The position numbers were made by a program, and so were the translations under genes. From Halomicrobium urmianum (GTDB lineage Archaea > Halobacteriota > Halobacteria > Halobacteriales > Haloarculaceae), in the NCBI RefSeq assembly GCF_020217425.1, contig NZ_CP084090.1:682001-746000 (forward strand): 64,000 nucleotides of DNA. Reading direction: 5' to 3'. Of the stretch, positions 9,484-41,295 are shown one piece after another (the first letter of the stretch is position 1; each line of letters begins with the position of its first letter). A model generated the notes under the pieces. The model was not told the DNA's origin and did no database searches. It was given only the letters and a program-made list of their open reading frames with translations.

Positions 9484-10553
9484 GTGTCGGGGGTCTCCGC
9501 GTCGACGACGTTCGCCTCGGCCCGCTCCTCGATGCGGATGCCCGTCTTCTTGAGGATCTCCGTCGAGAACAGCGTGTCCCAGTCGTCGTCGCCGACGTCC
9601 CAGTGCTCGCTCATCCGGTCGCGGACCTGCTCGATGCGCCGCTGGCTCTCGGCCTCGTCGCGGCCGTGGGTCATCGCGAAGACGTTGTACGGCCACACGC
9701 CCTCGTGGCGCGGGCGCTCGTAGCAGTGGGTGACGAAGTCGAAGGCGGCCACGTCCCGGCCCACCTCTTCGACCACCTCGCCGGGCACGTCCCAGACGGT
9801 CATCCCGTTCTCGGAGTAGCCCAGCGCGTAGTGGTTCGGCACCGCGCCGACCCGCCGGACCTTGCCTTCCTCGTTAAATCGTTTGATCGTCTCGACGACC
9901 CACTCGGTGTCCGCGCCGACGGTCTCGGCCACGTCGGCGTAGGGCGTCGCCGATATCGGCAGGCCGTCCTGGATCTCGACGACGAGGTCGAGTTCGTCGG
10001 GCGTCAGCCCCTCGCGGTCGGTGGGTTCGACGTCCGGGCCCAGATCAGACAGGTCGATGCCCTCCTCGGAGAGGGGGCCGTCGACCGGGAACTTCGCCTC
10101 GACGCGGAACTCCCGCTGCTTGGGCAGGTTGTACGTCTCCTGGCCCGTCTCGGACTCGATCTCCGCGAGGACCTCCTCGACGCGGTCCTCGTCGGCGACG
10201 GACACGACGAACCACATGTTGAGGTGCGGGTGCTCGCGGGCGTAGTTGTGGGCCACCTCGGGGAAGCCGTTGACCGTCTCGGCCACCTCGTCGAAGCGCT
10301 CCTCCGGCGCGTGCATCGCCACGAGCGTCGCCGTCCCGCCGATTGCCTCAGCGTCGATCAGCGCGCCGAAGCGGGTCAGCGTGCCCGCCTCGTCCATCGC
10401 CCGGACTCGCTCGACCAGTTCCGACTCGGTCACGTCGATCCCTCGTTCCCGGAGCGCCTCCGCGGCCGGCCCGAAGGGCCGCTCCGTTACCGGGAAGCCG
10501 CCCTGGAAGGCGTTGAGGACCGCGCGGTCGACGCGGTCCAGGTCCCCTGTCAT
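9480..10553 (-). CDS. ahbAB: Fused siroheme decarboxylase AhbA-AhbB
   Basis: A 357-residue protein made of two consecutive AsnC/Lrp-like units of about 160 and 180 residues. The first begins VDRAVLNAFQGGFPVTERPF and the second LVVEIQDGLPISATPY. Each has an N-terminal winged helix and a ligand-type beta-alpha domain (AREHPHLNMWFVV and ERPRHEGVWPYNVF). AhbA/B decarboxylate siroheme to didecarboxysiroheme in the alternative haem pathway of archaea; the subunits are often separate genes. The start at MTGDLDRV (10553) has a TTAAG TATA-like site about 26 bp upstream. It leads the ahbAB, dehydrogenase, hemA operon. Confidence 0.9.
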   Translation of the reverse strand: MTGDLDRVDRAVLNAFQGGFPVTERPFGPAAEALRERGIDVTESELVERVRAMDEAGTLTRFGALIDAEAIGGTATLVAMHAPEERFDEVAETVNGFPEVAHNYAREHPHLNMWFVVSVADEDRVEEVLAEIESETGQETYNLPKQREFRVEAKFPVDGPLSEEGIDLSDLGPDVEPTDREGLTPDELDLVVEIQDGLPISATPYADVAETVGADTEWVVETIKRFNEEGKVRRVGAVPNHYALGYSENGMTVWDVPGEVVEEVGRDVAAFDFVTHCYERPRHEGVWPYNVFAMTHGRDEAESQRRIEQVRDRMSEHWDVGDDDWDTLFSTEILKKTGIRIEERAEANVVDAETPDT

Positions 10554-10710
10554 GTACGAATCTGCGTACCGGGCGGGCTTAAGCCCCGCGACGGGCACGT
10601 TACTACTAAACACACGGGATCGAGACGTCCGAGAATCGTGCGCGCGGTCGGATTTAATTACTCATATAGGGTCTGCAAAACTATTGGGGGTCGCAGGTAC
10701 ATCCCGTCGT

Positions 10711-11139
10711 ATGGGTGGGCGAGTACTCCTCGACGTGTTCCTGGGGGATCCAGTACACTGGCGGAGACGATACTCCATCGCCGTCGCAGGTATCACGCTC
10801 ATAGTCCGGGATGTCGGGAGCGTCGGTGGCCTCGGATCGTGGCTCGCCTCACACGTCTGGTACGCGGCGCTCGTCGGGAGTGCGATCGGCGTCCTCGCCG
10901 GGTGGGACGACCAGGGACTCGTCAGCGGGTACGTCGGGACGCTGGTGTACGTCGTCGTCCTGCTGGTGAGTTTCACCCGTTTCGAGTCGACGATCGCCTG
11001 GTCGGTTCCCCCCATGGTACAGCGAGCAGTGGTGACGGTCGGTATAGCGACGGCGATGACGTGTCTACCGGGTTATCTCCTCGGCGTTTGCACCCGATTC
11101 GTAGCCACCCGATGGGCCGTGGATGCGAGCCGCAGTTGA
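10711..11139 (+). CDS. Hypothetical multi-pass membrane protein
   Basis: A 142-residue protein starting MGGRVLLDVFLGDP. About four hydrophobic segments are visible: ITLIVRDVGSVGG region, WYAALVGSAIGVLAG, LVYVVVLLVSF and AVVTVGIATAMTCLPGYLL. I do not recognise the family. The frame is open upstream of the Met, but that part overlaps the promoter region of ahbAB, and an AT-rich TTTAATTA at about 10654-10661 could be its promoter. Codon use is slightly less GC-biased than that of neighbours. It may be strain-specific. Confidence 0.55.
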   Translation: MGGRVLLDVFLGDPVHWRRRYSIAVAGITLIVRDVGSVGGLGSWLASHVWYAALVGSAIGVLAGWDDQGLVSGYVGTLVYVVVLLVSFTRFESTIAWSVPPMVQRAVVTVGIATAMTCLPGYLLGVCTRFVATRWAVDASRS

Positions 11140-11261
11140 GACCGAACAGCGCTCTCCTTGCCGAGCCCGGCCGAGGCGCTTCCCGAACGAGAGCCGGGGG
11201 AAAGCGAAGCAGAAGCACAGAACGCCACCAACGGTTTTGCCGCGGGAACCGTACCCGCGGT

Positions 11262-11558
11262 ATGGTATCCCGGGTCGAACTCGCGATCCGGATCGGCGTC
11301 TTCCTCCTGGTGCTGGTAGGGGCACCGCTGTTCTTCGTCCTGCTCTTCCGGGCGCTCGACTACATGGCGATGGACGACCTCGTCGAGGAGTACCGCGAGG
11401 GGTCGCGAGCCACGGACGTCGGGCAGTTGAACGCCCGCTACGCGGAGGCCGAGGACGGCGTGCTCTGTCCGCGCTGCGGCGCGGCCAACGGCGAGGACTT
11501 CCGGTACTGCCACACCTGCCAGGCGGACCTCGACGCGGTGGAGTATAGTAGAAATTGA
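11262..11558 (+). CDS. Membrane-anchored zinc-ribbon protein
   Basis: A 98-residue protein. An N-terminal membrane helix (about residues 8-30, RIGVFLLVLVGAPLFFVLLF) is followed by a short charged region and a C-terminal zinc ribbon, CPRCGAANGEDFRYCHTC. The final residues EYSRN and the stop codon lie inside the palindromic element at 11544-11627, so the natural C-terminus was probably remodelled when the element arrived. The function is unknown; small membrane zinc ribbons of this kind are common in haloarchaea. Confidence 0.75.
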   Translation: MVSRVELAIRIGVFLLVLVGAPLFFVLLFRALDYMAMDDLVEEYREGSRATDVGQLNARYAEAEDGVLCPRCGAANGEDFRYCHTCQADLDAVEYSRN

Positions 11559-11627
11559 ACGCACTGACACACTCGAGGGGCACCCCGGGTACCCCTCGAT
11601 GTGTGAATAGTTTCAATGGCTACTATA
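11544..11627 (-). repeat. Nested palindromic element, copy 1
   Basis: An ~84-bp inverted-repeat element. The outer arms are TATAGTAGAAATTGAA and its near-complement ending CTACTATA. The inner hairpin has arms CGAGGGGCACCCC and a matching GGGTACCCCTCG. Read on the minus strand it aligns along its whole length with the copies at 27669-27752 and 40085-40165. It overlaps the stop codon of the preceding zinc-ribbon gene and ends 14 bp before the TATA box of the next gene. Confidence 0.85.
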
Positions 11628-16136: not shown

Positions 16137-16233
16137 AGTGGTCACTCCCGGGCCGCGCCTAATACGCCTCACGATTCGCGTGGCGGCGGCTATCAGTGCA
16201 GCGCTCGAAGAATTGAACGGGATCGTCCCGTAG

Positions 16234-16428
16234 TTACAGACGCGTCAGGTTCTCGGCGCGCGGACCCTTGTCCGCTTCGACGATGTCGAACTCGACCTCC
16301 TGACCTTCCTCCAGGTCGGGGCCGCCGACGTCCTCCATGTGGAAGAACACGTCCTCGTCAGCGTCGTCTGTCTCGATGAAACCGTAGCCGCCGGTGTCGT
16401 TGAAGAAGTCGACAGTGCCTTGCGCCAT
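16234..16428 (-). CDS. cspA: Cold-shock protein, copy 2 of tandem pair
   Basis: A 64-residue CspA-type OB-fold protein. RNP1 appears as GGYGFIET and RNP2 as DVFFHMED, in a single-stranded nucleic-acid binding domain that fills the whole protein. It lies two bases downstream of the stop codon of its near-identical sister gene, so it depends on that transcript and probably on translational coupling. It differs from the sister mainly at ADKGPRAENLTRL and in an AD/SE exchange around residue 22. Confidence 0.93.
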   Translation of the reverse strand: MAQGTVDFFNDTGGYGFIETDDADEDVFFHMEDVGGPDLEEGQEVEFDIVEADKGPRAENLTRL

Positions 16429-16430
16429 CG

Positions 16431-16625
16431 TTAGAGACGCTCCAGGTTTTCCGCCCGCGGACCCTTGTCCGCTTGCACGATGTCGAACTCGACCTCCTGA
16501 CCTTCCTCCAGGTCGGGGCCGCCGACGTCCTCCATGTGGAAGAACACGTCCTCCTCGGAGTCCTCGGTCTCGATGAATCCGTAACCGCCAGTGTCGTTGA
16601 AGAAGTCAACCGTACCGGTCGCCAT
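16431..16625 (-). CDS. cspA: Cold-shock protein, copy 1 of tandem pair
   Basis: A 64-residue CspA-type protein starting MATGTVDFFNDTGGYGFIET, with the RNP2 motif VFFHMED. It is the first gene of the pair, with a TATA box 26 bp upstream and no leader. The two proteins differ at only a few positions, which points to recent duplication or gene conversion. It acts as an RNA chaperone or single-stranded DNA binding protein. Confidence 0.93.
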   Translation of the reverse strand: MATGTVDFFNDTGGYGFIETEDSEEDVFFHMEDVGGPDLEEGQEVEFDIVQADKGPRAENLERL

Positions 16626-25934: not shown

Positions 25935-26207
25935 ATGAGGGACCGAACGGAGACGATCGGCTGGAGCGTCGTCGCGCTGGTGTTGATCGCGCTCGCCGTC
26001 CCCTGGTTCATGTGGGGGTCCGACGCCGTCGTCGCCGGGCTCCCCGTGTGGATCTGGTGGCACGTCGGCTGGATGGCGCTCGCCTCGCTCGCCTTCGCCG
26101 CGTTCGCCCGGTACGGCTGGGGTGCCGGCGTCGTGCCGCGCGAGGACCGCTCGGCCGCCGCGAACGACGGGGACTCGACCGCACAGGAGGTGACCGCGGA
26201 TGGCTGA
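25935..26207 (+). CDS. DUF3311 small membrane protein
   Basis: A 90-residue protein with two membrane helices: ETIGWSVVALVLIALAVPWFMWG and LPVWIWWHVGWMALASLAFAAFA. This matches DUF3311, whose members are usually encoded directly before a sodium:solute symporter and are thought to be accessory subunits. The coding end overlaps the start of the symporter gene by 8 bp. CTATACGG at 25901-25908, about 30 bp upstream, is a TATA candidate. Confidence 0.85.
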   Translation: MRDRTETIGWSVVALVLIALAVPWFMWGSDAVVAGLPVWIWWHVGWMALASLAFAAFARYGWGAGVVPREDRSAAANDGDSTAQEVTADG

Positions 26208-27684
26208 CACCGCGCTCCAGCTGGCGATCGTCGGTGGGTACATGCTCGTCGCCGCAGCCGTCGGCGTCGTCGCCTACCGCCTGACCGACCGCACCGCCGA
26301 GGACTACTACCTCGCGAGCCGGACGTTCGGCACGGTCGTCCTCCTCTTTACCACGTTCGCGACGCTGCTGTCGGCGTTCACCTTCTTCGGCGGTCCGAAT
26401 CTGGCCTTCACTGCGGGCCCCGAGTGGATCCTCGTGATGGGGCTGATGGACGGGATCCTCTTCGCCGTCCTGTGGTACGTGCTGGGCTACAAGCAGTGGC
26501 TAGTCGGACAGAAGCACGGCTACGTCACGCTGGGCGAGATGCTCGGTCACCGCTTCGGCTCCCGCGGGCTGCGGGCGCTGGTCGCCGGGATCAGCCTCTT
26601 CTGGCTGTTCCCCTACGTGATGCTCCAGCAGAAGGGGGCGGGGCAGGCCGTCGTCGGCCTCACGAACGGCGCCGTCCCGTTCTGGGTCGGCGCGGGCGCG
26701 ATCACCCTGTTCATGATCGTCTACGTCGCCGTCTCGGGGATGCGCGGCGTCGCCTGGACCGACACCCTCCAAGGACTGGTCATGCTCGGCCTGATCTGGG
26801 TGGCGGTCGCGTGGGTGCTCTCGGCGGTCGGCGGCCTCGGCGAGGCGACCCGGCAGATGGGCGAGTCGAATCCGGAGTTCCTCGCTCTGGGCGGCGGGCT
26901 CTACACGCCGGAGTACGTCCTCTCGACGGCGATCAGCATCGCCTTCGGCGTGGTGATGTTCCCGCAGATCAACCAGCGCTTCTTCGTCGCGCGCTCCCGG
27001 ACGGTCCTCAAGCGGACGCTGGCGCTGTGGCCCGTCCTCGTCATCCTGCTGTTCGTCCCCGCGTTCATGCTGGGCGCGTGGGCCGCCGGACTCGGCGTCG
27101 CCGTCCCGGAGAACGGGAACGTGATCCCCGCGATCCTCAACGAGTACACCGCCGGCTGGTTCACCGCGGCCGTCGTCGCCGCGGCCATGGCCGCGATGAT
27201 GTCCTCCAGCGACTCGATGCTGCTGTCCGGGGCCTCCTATCTGACACGGGACCTCTACCGACCGCTGGTGTCGAGCGATCCGGACCGCGAGGCGCTCGTC
27301 GCCCGCGTCGGCGTGGTCGCGTTCGCGACGCTCTCGTTCGTCGCCAGCCTGTACTCGACGAGGACGCTCGTTCAGATCGGCGACACCGCCTTCGGCGGCT
27401 TCGCCCAGCTCGCGCTGCCCGTCGTCGTCGCGCTGTACTGGGACCGGACGACCCGCTGGGGAATGTACGCCGGGATCGTCGTCTCGCAGGGGTTCTACCT
27501 CGCCAGCGTCTTCCTGACACAGGTCCCCGGGAGCTACCTCGGCGGCTGGTCGGCCTCCGTGGTCGGGATGGTCATCGGCCTGCTCCTGACCGTCGGCGTC
27601 TCGCTGCTCACGTCCGCCGCCGTCGGCGAGGACGCCAGCGTCTACGCGGTCGGTGAACCCGGCGCGGACTATAGTCGAAATTGA
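26200..27684 (+). CDS. Sodium:solute symporter (SSS family)
   Basis: A 494-residue transporter with about 13 membrane helices. Typical family features are YYLASRTFG near the N-terminus, TTFATLLSAFTFFGGPN (helix 2), GMRGVAWTDTLQG, and MSSSDSMLLSGASYLTRDLYRP near helix 9, which contributes to the sodium site. Substrates of close relatives include carboxylic acids and pantothenate; none can be assigned here. It forms an operon with the DUF3311 gene. The last residues, ADYSRN, and the stop codon lie within palindromic element copy 2. Confidence 0.9.
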   Translation: MADTALQLAIVGGYMLVAAAVGVVAYRLTDRTAEDYYLASRTFGTVVLLFTTFATLLSAFTFFGGPNLAFTAGPEWILVMGLMDGILFAVLWYVLGYKQWLVGQKHGYVTLGEMLGHRFGSRGLRALVAGISLFWLFPYVMLQQKGAGQAVVGLTNGAVPFWVGAGAITLFMIVYVAVSGMRGVAWTDTLQGLVMLGLIWVAVAWVLSAVGGLGEATRQMGESNPEFLALGGGLYTPEYVLSTAISIAFGVVMFPQINQRFFVARSRTVLKRTLALWPVLVILLFVPAFMLGAWAAGLGVAVPENGNVIPAILNEYTAGWFTAAVVAAAMAAMMSSSDSMLLSGASYLTRDLYRPLVSSDPDREALVARVGVVAFATLSFVASLYSTRTLVQIGDTAFGGFAQLALPVVVALYWDRTTRWGMYAGIVVSQGFYLASVFLTQVPGSYLGGWSASVVGMVIGLLLTVGVSLLTSAAVGEDASVYAVGEPGADYSRN

Positions 27685-27752
27685 AACTATTTACACATCG
27701 AGGGGCACCCCGTATGCCCCTCGAATGTGTCATCGCGTTCAATTTCTACTAT
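27669..27752 (+). repeat. Nested palindromic element, copy 2
   Basis: An ~84-bp element with outer arms ATAGTCGAAATTGAA and TTCAATTTCTACTAT, and inner arms ACACATCGAGGGGCA and TGCCCCTCGAATGTGT. An asymmetric internal loop (ACTATTT against CATCGCG) lies between them. It sits between two convergent genes and encodes the final Ser-Arg-Asn and stop codon of both. Confidence 0.88.
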
Positions 27753-28908
27753 CGGGACTGTCCCCGTCAGCGACGTCGGCCACCGTCCGCGAGTCCGTCG
27801 CGATGCCGTTCTCGTTGATCGCCTCGGCGACAATCTCGTACGTCTGGCCGGTCGTCCCGCCCTGGGTGCCCCCGCCCTCGGGGTACTGGACCGTTCCCGT
27901 CGGCGCGGCGTCACTCGCGACCGTCGCGTCGGACCAGTCGTTCTCGGCGTTGTCGAAGGTCACCCGGACCTCGCGGAACCGGTCGACGTTGCTCACTTCG
28001 TAGTCGACGGCGAAGCGGGTCTGGTCGGTCCCCGGGTCGGAGTCGTCCGTCACCGCGAGCGACTCGACGGCGAGGTCGTCCGGTCCGCCGAGGTCGTCGT
28101 TGTCCGCCGGGTCCGCTCCGTCGGCCACGTCCCGCAGCGTCCGCCGGATCGCGACGTCGCCCGTGGCGTCGTAGACGGTCAGCTCGAACTCGTACTCGTC
28201 GCCGGCGGCGCCGCCGTCGGTCCCCGACCCGGGAATCCGGATCACGTCCTCGGAGGCGGACCGGGTGTACGTTCGCTCTGGAAGGTCGTCCCGGTTCGGC
28301 CCCAGGTTCCGGACGGCCACCTCGAATCGCTCGCTCCCGTCCGACGCGACGTTCTCGAACCCGTCCAGACGGTACGCGAGCGAGAACAGGGCGTTCCCGT
28401 TGCGGGTCCTGTCGTCGAGTGACCGTCTGAGAGAGCGAACGTCGACGCACCTCGTTGCCCTCACGTCGACCGACCGGCCGTCAGTGGCCCGTACCTCGAA
28501 CGCGAGCGCGTTCTTGCCCCCGGGTGCGTCAGCGGCCACGTCGACGGAGACGGCCACTGACGCGCCCGGAGCGATCGTCGATTCGGCCGGGGACACCGAT
28601 CCCCTCGACGGGTCGGCCAGTGACACCGACGCGGTCAGTTCCACGCCGGCGTTGTTCTCGACCGTCACGAGGCGCTGGGACTCGCCCGCGTCCACTGCCG
28701 ATGCCACGTCCAGCCCGACGAGCGCCGCCTCGTCGCTGGCCGTCCCGACGCGCAGCGATCGATCCGCCCGCACCTGCGTGAACGCCCCGGACCCGGCGGC
28801 GAGCAGCCCGCCGACCCCGGTCAGGAGTCCGCCGGCGAGGAACGACCGGCGGGAGACGCCGCTCTCAGGGCTCCGCGACCGCGAGCGCCGCCGGCGCTTC
28901 CCACCCAT
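27739..28908 (-). CDS. Tat-exported protein with SipW/DUF1102-like N-terminus
   Basis: A 389-residue protein. The N-terminus has a twin-arginine signal (SRRSFLAGGLLTGVGGLLAAGSGAFTQ). It continues with ADRSLRVGTASDEAALVGLD, the pattern of haloarchaeal DUF1102/CalY-like surface proteins. The following acidic beta-rich regions include SVSLADPSRGSVSPAESTIAPG, which resembles other haloarchaeal surface proteins. An internal cysteine (CVDVRSL) is present. Its C-terminal SRN and stop codon come from palindromic element copy 2. It is probably a cell-surface or secreted protein of unknown role. Confidence 0.75.
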   Translation of the reverse strand: MGGKRRRRSRSRSPESGVSRRSFLAGGLLTGVGGLLAAGSGAFTQVRADRSLRVGTASDEAALVGLDVASAVDAGESQRLVTVENNAGVELTASVSLADPSRGSVSPAESTIAPGASVAVSVDVAADAPGGKNALAFEVRATDGRSVDVRATRCVDVRSLRRSLDDRTRNGNALFSLAYRLDGFENVASDGSERFEVAVRNLGPNRDDLPERTYTRSASEDVIRIPGSGTDGGAAGDEYEFELTVYDATGDVAIRRTLRDVADGADPADNDDLGGPDDLAVESLAVTDDSDPGTDQTRFAVDYEVSNVDRFREVRVTFDNAENDWSDATVASDAAPTGTVQYPEGGGTQGGTTGQTYEIVAEAINENGIATDSRTVADVADGDSPDSRN

Positions 28909-38505: not shown

Positions 38506-39729
38506 ATGCAGAGCACGGGGACCGAGACGGCGACGCCGGTGTCCTCGGGGGTCGCCGACCTGTTCCGGAACGCCGAGGCGCTCCTGGAGCAGTTGACGAC
38601 GGCGCGCGGACGGATGACGGTGACCGGCGTCGTCGTCCTCCTGGCGGTGGTCGGCCTCGGTGTCGTCCTCCCGTGGCTCGTCCGCCGGTGGCGAGAGGTG
38701 TTCGCCTCGCGGTACGTCACGGGGCCCGGTGCGGACGCCATCGAGGTCGTCGGGGAGTACGTCCCGACGACGCTGTCCGGCATCGCGCTCAGGGCCGTCC
38801 AGTTGGCGGGCATCGTCGGGACGGCTCTGGCCCTGCTGATCGTCTGGGGGCTCGTCGACGTGGCGCGGTCGGTCGGAGAGTTGCTCCTGTCCGCCCTGCC
38901 GGGGATCGTCAACGTGAGCCTCACCGCGGTCCTCGTCGTCGCCGGCTACATCGCCTCGGACCAGCTCCGCGGGGCCATCCAGCGGTTCAGCGACAACGCC
39001 GACCAGGTGACCGACCACCAGGAGGAGATCCTCCTGCGCGTCAGTCAGCTAGCCCTGTTCGTCACCGTCGGCGCCGCCGTCATGACGCTATGGGGCGTGG
39101 ACCTCTCGGGGCTACTGGTCGGGGCCGGGTTCCTCGGCATCGTGGTCGGCCTCGCCGCCCGGCAGACGCTGGGGTCGCTGATCGCGGGCTTCGTGCTGAT
39201 GTTCTCCCGGCCGTTCACTATCGGCGACTGGGTCCAGATCGGCGACCAGGAGGGCATCGTCACGGACATCACCATCTTCAACACGCGACTGGAGAACTTC
39301 GACGGCGAGTTCGTCGTCATCCCGAACGACAGCGTCAGCGACAGCGCGGTGACGAACCGCTCGGGCAAGGGGCGCCTGCGGCTGCGGACCGACGTGGGCA
39401 TCGACTACGACGACGACCCCGACCGCGCGATGTCGGTGGCCATGGACGCGATGGACCGCGTGGACGAGGTCGCCGACACCCCCTCGCCGCAGGTCGTCCC
39501 CAAGGAGTTCGGCGACTCGGCGGTCGTGCTGGAACTGCGCTACTGGATCGACAAGCCGACGCCGCCGCGGAAGTGGGGCGCCGTCTCCGCCGTCGTCCGC
39601 GAGGTCAAGGACGCCTTCGACCGGGAGGGCATCGCCATCCCCTTCCCGCAGCGGACCGTCGGCGCGCGCGAGGACGGTGCCGACGCGGACCTCGGCGTCG
39701 GTGGGGTCGAGGCGGACAGCCTCGACTAG
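38506..39729 (+). CDS. mscS: MscS-family mechanosensitive channel
   Basis: A 407-residue channel protein. Four or five membrane helices precede the conserved pore helix and beta domain: LLVGAGFLGIVVGLAARQTLGSLIAGFVLMFSRPFTIGDWVQI, EGIVTDITIFNTRL and VVIPNDSVSDSAV. The C-terminal alpha-beta domain follows. It would release solutes at hypo-osmotic shock, an important risk for a salt-in halophile. Its stop codon overlaps that of the convergent small membrane gene by 4 bp. Confidence 0.93.
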   Translation: MQSTGTETATPVSSGVADLFRNAEALLEQLTTARGRMTVTGVVVLLAVVGLGVVLPWLVRRWREVFASRYVTGPGADAIEVVGEYVPTTLSGIALRAVQLAGIVGTALALLIVWGLVDVARSVGELLLSALPGIVNVSLTAVLVVAGYIASDQLRGAIQRFSDNADQVTDHQEEILLRVSQLALFVTVGAAVMTLWGVDLSGLLVGAGFLGIVVGLAARQTLGSLIAGFVLMFSRPFTIGDWVQIGDQEGIVTDITIFNTRLENFDGEFVVIPNDSVSDSAVTNRSGKGRLRLRTDVGIDYDDDPDRAMSVAMDAMDRVDEVADTPSPQVVPKEFGDSAVVLELRYWIDKPTPPRKWGAVSAVVREVKDAFDREGIAIPFPQRTVGAREDGADADLGVGGVEADSLD

Positions 39730-40084: not shown

Positions 40085-40165
40085 CTATAGTAGAAATTGA
40101 AACTATTTACACATCGAAGGGCGCCCGAGGTGCCCCTCAAGTGTGTCATTGCGTTCGATTTCTAC
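40085..40165 (+). repeat. Nested palindromic element, copy 3
   Basis: An ~81-bp element in the same orientation as copy 2. Outer arms are CTATAGTAGAAATTGAA and TTCGATTTCTAC; inner arms are ACACATCGAAGGGC and GCCCCTCAAGTGTGT. It has a few more mismatches than the other copies. It lies between the small membrane gene and thrB and does not touch a stop codon. Confidence 0.85.
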
Positions 40166-40197: not shown

Positions 40198-40245
40198 CGA
40201 GACGGCAGAGCCGTCTCGTGATGACGAGAGAGCTTCGCTCTCTCG
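40198..40245. terminator. Two perfect 9-bp hairpins after thrB
   Basis: Stem CGAGACGGC/GCCGTCTCG with loop AGA at 40198-40218, and stem CGAGAGAGC/GCTCTCTCG with loop TTC at 40225-40245. The second ends 7 bp after the thrB stop codon. There is no T-run, so a terminator role is only probable; transcript-end protection is equally possible. Confidence 0.5.
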
Positions 40246-40252
40246 AACGCGG

Positions 40253-41128
40253 TTACCGGACCGTCGCGCCGTCGCCGATGTGAGTCTGGTAGACGGTGGC
40301 GTCGACGCCGGCGTCCGCGAAGGCGTCGAGCATCGCGGATCCGATGGAGCGCTGGTCGGACTCGTGACAGGCGGCGATGACGGCCGGGCCGGCGCCGCTG
40401 ATCGTGACGCCGGTCGCGCCCGCCTCGATGGCGGCCTCGCGGACGGCGTCGTAGCCGTCGATCAGCTTCGCGCGGGCCGGCGTCACGACGGAGTCGTACA
40501 TGCCCCGCCCCACCAGTTCGGGGTCGGACCGGTGCATCCCGGTCGTCAGCGTGGCGGCGTTGCCGACGGTCTCGACGAGCTTCGAGACGTCGGTGCGCTC
40601 GGGGACCACCTCGCGCGCGTCGCGCGTCGAGACGACGATGTCGGGGAGGCAGGCAACCAGCGGGACGTCGGCCGACACCTTCGTGACGCCGTCGTCGGTG
40701 GCGATGGTAAAGCCGCCCATGATGGCCGGGGCGACGTTGTCGTCGTGCGCGTCGCCGGAGACCACCGCCTCGCCCTCGGCGGCGACGGGGACCAGTTCCT
40801 CCCGGGAGAGGCCGCGGTCGTACAGGCGGTTGAGCGCGACGGCGGCGGCCGCGGCGCTGGCGGCGGAGGAACCCAGCCCCGAAGCGGGTCGGATTCCCTT
40901 GTCGATGTGGATGTGCGCCGGGGCGTCCAGCGCCTCCGCGACGGCGCCGACCGTGTTCTTGTCGGGGTCCTCCGGGATGTACTGGCTGCCGGCGCCGGTC
41001 ACCTCGATGGTGACCTCGTCGGCCTTCTCGACCCTGACGACGTCGGCCGGGCGTTCCAGGGCGACGCCGAAGACGTCGAAGCCGCTGCCGAGGTTGGCGC
41101 TGGTCGCCGGCGCCCGGACGGTCACCAT
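40253..41128 (-). CDS. thrB: Homoserine kinase
   Basis: A 291-residue GHMP kinase. It phosphorylates homoserine for threonine synthesis. Family motifs are the N-terminal MVTVRAPATSANLGSGFDVFG, the ATP-binding RPASGLGSSAASAAAAAVALN near residue 85, and the late ATGVTISGAGPAVIA. A longer frame to 41260 exists, but MVTVRAPATSANLG is the conserved family start. Two hairpins follow the stop codon. Confidence 0.95.
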   Translation of the reverse strand: MVTVRAPATSANLGSGFDVFGVALERPADVVRVEKADEVTIEVTGAGSQYIPEDPDKNTVGAVAEALDAPAHIHIDKGIRPASGLGSSAASAAAAAVALNRLYDRGLSREELVPVAAEGEAVVSGDAHDDNVAPAIMGGFTIATDDGVTKVSADVPLVACLPDIVVSTRDAREVVPERTDVSKLVETVGNAATLTTGMHRSDPELVGRGMYDSVVTPARAKLIDGYDAVREAAIEAGATGVTISGAGPAVIAACHESDQRSIGSAMLDAFADAGVDATVYQTHIGDGATVR

Positions 41129-41295
41129 GCGACCGAATTTCCGTAGTGCGGGCAAAAAGGTAGCGGACTGGTGCGGACTGTCGGCGTACTCGCCCGGTGG
41201 ACCGCCCGCACTCGGGCGGTGGGACCGGTGCGGAACGAGGGCGATCCAAGCCACAAGCAATAAGCCAGCGACTGGTCATTCAGTGATACGCTTCG

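Follow-up and report, generated by a model that had tools for sequence, protein, structure and literature searches.

An 80-bp haloarchaeal MITE that inserts into CTAG and re-closes the interrupted stop codon, probably mobilised by an IS630-family transposase

Introduction

Within 29 kb of the Halomicrobium urmianum genome, three copies of a nested palindrome lie at gene ends or between genes, which raises the question of what this repeat is and why it is found where genes stop. A first-pass annotation of the surrounding 64,000-nucleotide stretch of DNA (hereafter the window) had offered two readings, a non-autonomous mobile element of MITE or PATE type and a domesticated transcript-end element. 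Here we present data which argue that the hairpins are copies of an 80-bp non-autonomous MITE, probably mobilised in trans by an IS630/Tc1-mariner transposase of the ISNpe3/ISNamo16 type.

Results

Three copies of a nested hairpin in the window

All three palindromes were recovered at or within 1-2 bases of where the annotation had placed them (Table 1), and copy 1 is indeed inverted relative to the other two; the count of three copies in 29 kb was right as well, and understates the family. Judged by single-stranded DNA energies against dinucleotide shuffles, the nested hairpins of copies 1, 2, and 3 gave z values of -7.6, -9.9, and -4.7, respectively, and none of 200 shuffles folded as well as the copies themselves. 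With at most one mismatch allowed, TAGAAATTGAA occurs five times in the window, always inside the three copies, with 0 occurrences expected. Absence from gene interiors holds for these three copies, of which two are fused to gene ends, and the element is short and non-coding, as had been proposed. The parts of the window inspected are consistent with the claim that no transposase is nearby, the window being annotated in part. No tRNA genes were found in the window, and Rfam covariance models gave no match within it at the gathering threshold.

Table 1. Features of the window that bear on the three copies (strand + or -).
Feature	Coordinates	Strand	Remarks
MITE copy 1	11544..11627	-	TA+80+TA, complete; target was gTAg
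MITE copy 2	27670..27753	+	TA+80+TC, complete; right TA decayed to TC
MITE copy 3	40086..40165	+	right terminus truncated, ~5 bp gone; intergenic
Copy 2 left terminal arm	27672..27686	+	TAGTCGAAATTGAAA
Copy 2 inner hairpin	27693..27730	+	ACACATCGAGGGGCA..TGCCCCTCGAATGTGT
Gene ending in copy 1	9603..11558	+	ends ...LDAVE-YSRN*; congeners end ...ASLE*
Gene ending in copy 2	26200..27684	+	ends ...GEPGAD-YSRN*; congeners ...GVDGD* at about the same place
Convergent gene ending in other end of copy 2	27739..28908	-	ends ...GDSP-DSRN*
Convergent gene flanking copy 3	38506-39729	+	
Convergent gene flanking copy 3	40253-41260	-	

Other repeats are present in the same DNA. A second hairpin repeat, of CGAGACGGCAGAGCCGTCTCGTGATGACGAGAGAGCTTCGCTCTCTCGAA type, adjoins copy 3 at 40200-40248, and parts of it recur often in the H. 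urmianum genome and in congeners free of the MITE. Clustered repeats of GAGGCGAAGCCGAGCG..GCTCGACGAGCTTTGCTCGTCGGCGTCCT type, two of which share 98% identity, occupy 903-1385, and a 197-bp tandem duplication (88% identical) lies at 16228-16621.

Anatomy and pairing of the element

Among 160 distinct copies, 149 have the unit TA + 80 bp + TA. The element consists of a conserved inner hairpin within imperfect inverted ends, the terminal repeats (TATAGTA.. / ..TACTATA) having imperfect arms of ~16 bp. Two main sequence types were seen, TATAGTAGAAATTGAAACTATTTACACATCGAGGGGCACCCCGGGTGCCCCTCGAGTGTGTCAGTGCGTTCAATTTCTACTATA in H. urmianum itself and TATAGTAACAATTGAAACGATTTACACACCGATCGCACTGCTGTCGTGCGATCGGGTGTGCATTGACTTTCAATGGCTACTATA, which is commoner elsewhere. 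Across genera, outer arms and inner hairpin stay paired via changes on both sides: 92% of the cells are paired, and shifting the partners by 1-3 bases lowers this to 25-43%. Such compensatory pairing can arise by selection or by copying within the hairpin. Two length variants were noted, one of 62 bp in which the hairpin is shorter (L171) and another whose hairpin loop contains 41 additional bp (L214).

A widespread family of haloarchaeal repeats

From 24 copies we built a covariance model and ran it on the H. urmianum genome (4.25 Mb) and on 293 genomes of the order. Since the palindrome is matched on both strands, the at least 150 matches in the former correspond to at least 107 distinct places by our own count, spread over the chromosome (3.36 Mb) and two other large replicons (418 and 400 kb); a sequence search recovered dozens of copies at 87-93% identity. 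The median identity of these copies to their own consensus is 94%, and therefore the burst in H. urmianum is probably not recent. No covariance-model match was obtained in G005 or G006, two congeners with the same genome size.

The wider search that the annotation had recommended revealed a widespread family, with matches in 97 of the 293 sampled genomes and in 33 of 87 genera, many of the positive genomes having at least 15 matches each. Carriers include Halomicrobium katesii, Natrinema versiforme, and Salinadaptatus, and copies are found on plasmids of Halomicrobium mukohataei, Haloarcula hispanica, Natrialba magadii, and others; the own-type consensus, searched against plasmids at blastn sensitivity, gave no match. 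No copies were found in phages, and no viral contig had the exact core pattern. In Natrinema versiforme one copy (L040, 5716-5801) apparently lies inside a CutA-like reading frame, its flanks having been judged by eye. Genome G192 has two identical tandem copies (L118, 401-575) with 3 bp between them, including an N, which may be an assembly artefact.

Insertion at the TA of CTAG

Identical copies at unrelated loci in one Natrinema genome (G268) show that the element has been mobile recently. When the joined flanks of these copies were searched against 29 genomes of the genus, the empty orthologous sites and target-site duplication that the annotation had proposed to look for were found. A relative (G045, locus L123) has a plain CTAG where locus L108 of G268 has CTATAG..CTATAG, and at the site of a second copy (L106) CTAG is found in one relative and CCAG in most of the others. 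The TA of CTAG is therefore the target and is duplicated upon insertion. In line with this, 137 of the 160 copies have a C immediately 5' of the left TA and 131 have a G immediately 3' of the right one, with little bias in the flanks beyond. IS630 itself prefers CTAG, according to the title of a 1991 paper by Tenzen and Ohtsubo cited in PMC2170065. For the window copies no gapless empty site was found, the flanks in congeners giving orthologous gene ends. By every feature tested, the family is a MITE. Of the pair "MITE or PATE type" the first half thus stood, by virtue of terminal inverted repeats, TA duplication, and an IS with the same termini (see below), and the second fell, on account of the inverted repeats, the target duplication, and the lack of a significant Y1/IS200-type association.

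Insertions at stop codons add four residues

CTAG is about tenfold depleted in the window relative to base composition, with 19 occurrences against ~180 expected on that basis or 65 by a Markov estimate. Gene prediction places 4 of the 19 at stop codons, and a comparison with the list of open reading frames suggests ~7. Depletion of CTAG, together with an orphan CTAG methylase, is known across haloarchaea (PMC6471742).

To score the coding frames of the flanks we used codon statistics trained on the window. For 41 genes the frame runs on into a copy, and in 39 of them the target TA starts a TAG codon, where one third would be expected (binomial p ~1e-16); other settings gave 23/24, 33/37, and 43/47. 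In this frame the element reads TAT AGT NNN NNN TGA, so that four residues (YSRN, YSNN, YSSH, and so on) are added; of the 160 copies, 156 have TGA as the fifth codon at the left end and 147 at the right end. The new stop comes four residues after the old one, and the gene therefore survives the insertion. Overall, 35 of 160 copies, and two of the three in the window, are located at gene ends. The original TAG stop of the gene at 9603..11558 was likely the target of copy 1.

The cleanest case is the pair L108/L123, in which two convergent frames use one CTAG as their stops at the empty site. They end in ..CRL* and ..TTH* in the empty L123, and in ..CQL-YSSN* and ..TNH-YSSN* in the filled L108. 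The left gene of this pair is conserved across the genus, and the right frame may not represent a genuine gene.

A candidate partner IS of the IS630 family

The IS with matching termini that the annotation had suggested looking for does exist. It belongs to the IS630 family, spans 1,059 bp including both TAs (TATAGTA...TACTATA), and has close relatives that PGAP annotates as ISNpe3 and ISNamo16. Its ends, read among several IS630 classes, have the form TATAGTARNNRTTAGAARTAATTGCTCAC and TATAGTARYCGTTAGAAYTTTC; its copies occupy differing sites, flanked mostly by C and G (C TA [IS] TA G at most copies read). The seven terminal bases are identical between MITE and IS at both ends. Over 29 positions, the right end of the MITE shares 22 with the first end of the IS, and 15 of the 22 that follow TATAGTA are identical (shuffle p 5e-5); the match of the left end is weaker (17-18/29). 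Like the MITE, both IS ends close a TAG frame after four residues (YSRR*, YSNR*, YSSR*, YSKN*), with TAG as the fifth codon.

DDE_3 (Pfam, IS630-family) proteins occur in 55 of the 97 genomes with the element and 59 of the 196 without (p 1e-5). The ISNpe3/ISNamo16-type class itself is found in 29 of the 97 and in 23 of the 196 (odds ratio 3.2, p 3e-4), an association that bears on cross-mobilisation only indirectly and is not corrected for phylogeny. Several copy-rich genomes gave no recognisable IS630 transposase in the DDE_3 search. The H. urmianum genome has neither a DDE_3 protein nor a partner-class transposase; with the partner absent, the family there is probably now without its transposase and the copies are probably orphans. 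MITEs can be orphaned, so that a partner in the same genome is not strictly defining. In G268 only a remnant of a DDE_3 transposase was found despite the identical MITE copies, a case of recent movement without an obvious enzyme.

Other candidates were rejected. In a CTATAGTAG census for an autonomous parent in H. urmianum, the one long pair (C1:1088603-1089634; L215 4604-5635) was an ordinary copy split by an IS at a CTAG inside the element, with target-site duplication AAACTAGTT and a 277-aa ORF; this IS is apparently of IS5/ISH1 type, judged from its sequence. The ends of other IS630 classes (ATAGTGATG.., ATACTC.., and the IS630 of H. katesii) do not match those of the MITE. The haloarchaeal IS630 classes seen at L301-L306 and L309-L310 have ends ATAGTGATG.. 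and ATACTC.., and some of these, too, may re-create a stop after insertion into a TAG codon.

Discussion

The results are consistent with the following sequence of events. An IS630-family transposase would excise the element at its TATAGTA termini and insert it at the TA of a CTAG site, duplicating that TA. CTAG is rare in haloarchaea and often forms a gene end (..C TAG), where insertion turns the stop into TAT AGT NNN NNN TGA; the protein gains four residues and then ends. Because either end of the element re-closes the frame, overlapping stops of convergent genes can be hit with neither protein lost. We infer that this transposase comes from the ISNpe3/ISNamo16-type IS and that being tolerated at stop codons has helped the family to spread.

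Yet a different enzyme could be the mover, since no IS630 transposase was found in H. urmianum or in several copy-rich genomes and G268 has only a remnant. The element would then be a MITE or small mobile repeat like the SMRs of Haloquadratum, which are of similar size and have no known transposase (PMC3119063), moved, for example, by an HUH (Y1/RAYT-like) transposase or a hairpin-acting serine recombinase. The conserved inner hairpin with its compensatory changes points the same way, as it is unlike a typical MITE and the transposase model by itself does not explain it. The TA duplication in CTAG and the common TATAGTA termini, however, fit IS630. As for an HUH enzyme in particular, Y1_Tnp was rejected as partner, being present in 67 of 97 genomes with the element and 119 of 196 without (no significant association) and absent from ten copy-rich genomes; moreover, HUH elements make no target duplication. 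A mover outside the IS630 family is thus unlikely in our estimation. More improbable still is dispersal by RAYT of a REP/REPIN-type palindrome family, to which we give hardly any credence: high copy number, hairpin form, and GTAG/CTAC near the ends would suit it, but there is a target duplication and a CTAG target, several copy-rich genomes have no Y1 protein, the arms make one outer inverted repeat rather than two separate REPs, and no recurrent gene lies between neighbouring copies in the clusters read.

Scarcely more credible is that the repeat has been domesticated as a transcript-end or RNA element and is maintained for the host, be it as a terminator, an mRNA stabiliser, or a regulatory RNA; this widens the second reading offered by the first-pass annotation. 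A strong hairpin whose pairing is conserved by compensation, and the location at gene ends, are what such an element would show. Against this stand presence and absence between congeners, empty orthologous sites, identical copies at unrelated loci, and the lack of an Rfam match, and the target TAG itself accounts for the location. Domestication is not needed here: the CTAG target and purifying selection together explain the location at gene ends, and recognition of stop codons as such is unneeded, because CTAG is concentrated at stops and insertions inside genes are selected against. The MITE mobilised by an ISNpe3/ISNamo16-type transposase accordingly remains our preferred reading.

Whether the built-in stop was itself selected is a separate matter. 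It could be incidental to the terminal sequence, and since stops are not rare in AT-rich ends, the sequence evidence for selection on it is only suggestive. We offer, as a speculation that we would sooner doubt than back, that the ends of MITE and IS were selected for harmlessness in stop codons, with the conserved inner hairpin as a second selected feature, perhaps aiding the synapsis of the ends or acting as RNA. If true, the MITE/IS pair would have turned stop codons into places where it can land safely, among them a CTAG that serves two convergent genes.

In keeping with the first-pass annotation, no description of the family was found by sequence string or keyword in open full text (subscription papers and ISfinder lie outside this search), and this 80-bp CTAG-inserting family is apparently undescribed. 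It is a large, apparently unrecognised source of haloarchaeal repeats and of protein C-terminal tails in about one third of the sampled genomes, and gene-end annotation and "conserved" C-terminal motifs in carrier genomes should allow for it. The family also provides a concrete case of a transposon exploiting a rare tetranucleotide that is clustered at gene stops. Why haloarchaeal genomes contain so little CTAG is an open question (PMC6471742), and insertion of this kind may be one of the pressures at work.

Several known systems resemble the MITE in part. IS630 and ISY100 of the Tc1/mariner superfamily likewise insert into TA and duplicate it, but are autonomous and bacterial (PMC2170065). 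The SMRs and PATEs of Haloquadratum walsbyi are also short, non-coding, high-copy haloarchaeal mobile repeats, and SMRs have terminal inverted repeats; SMRs, however, have no target duplication and no related IS, whereas the MITE has a TA duplication and IS630-like inverted repeats, and PATEs are without terminal inverted repeats and related to IS605-type elements (PMC3119063). The ISNpe3/ISNamo16-type IS has in common with the MITE termini of the form TATAGTA(R)NNNTT.., the CTAG target, the TA duplication, and closure of the TAG frame after four residues, and differs from it in its 1,059-bp length, its transposase gene, and TAG instead of TGA as codon 5. RUP of Streptococcus pneumoniae, a MITE of IS630-Spn1, resembles the present family in having ~100 copies of ~100 bp, IS630-like inverted repeats, target duplications, and an over-representation between convergent genes; it is bacterial and AT-rich, and the part of its description cited here gives no stop-codon rule (PMC3049150). 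The haloarchaeal MITE is most probably IS630-derived, standing to its IS as RUP does to IS630-Spn1.
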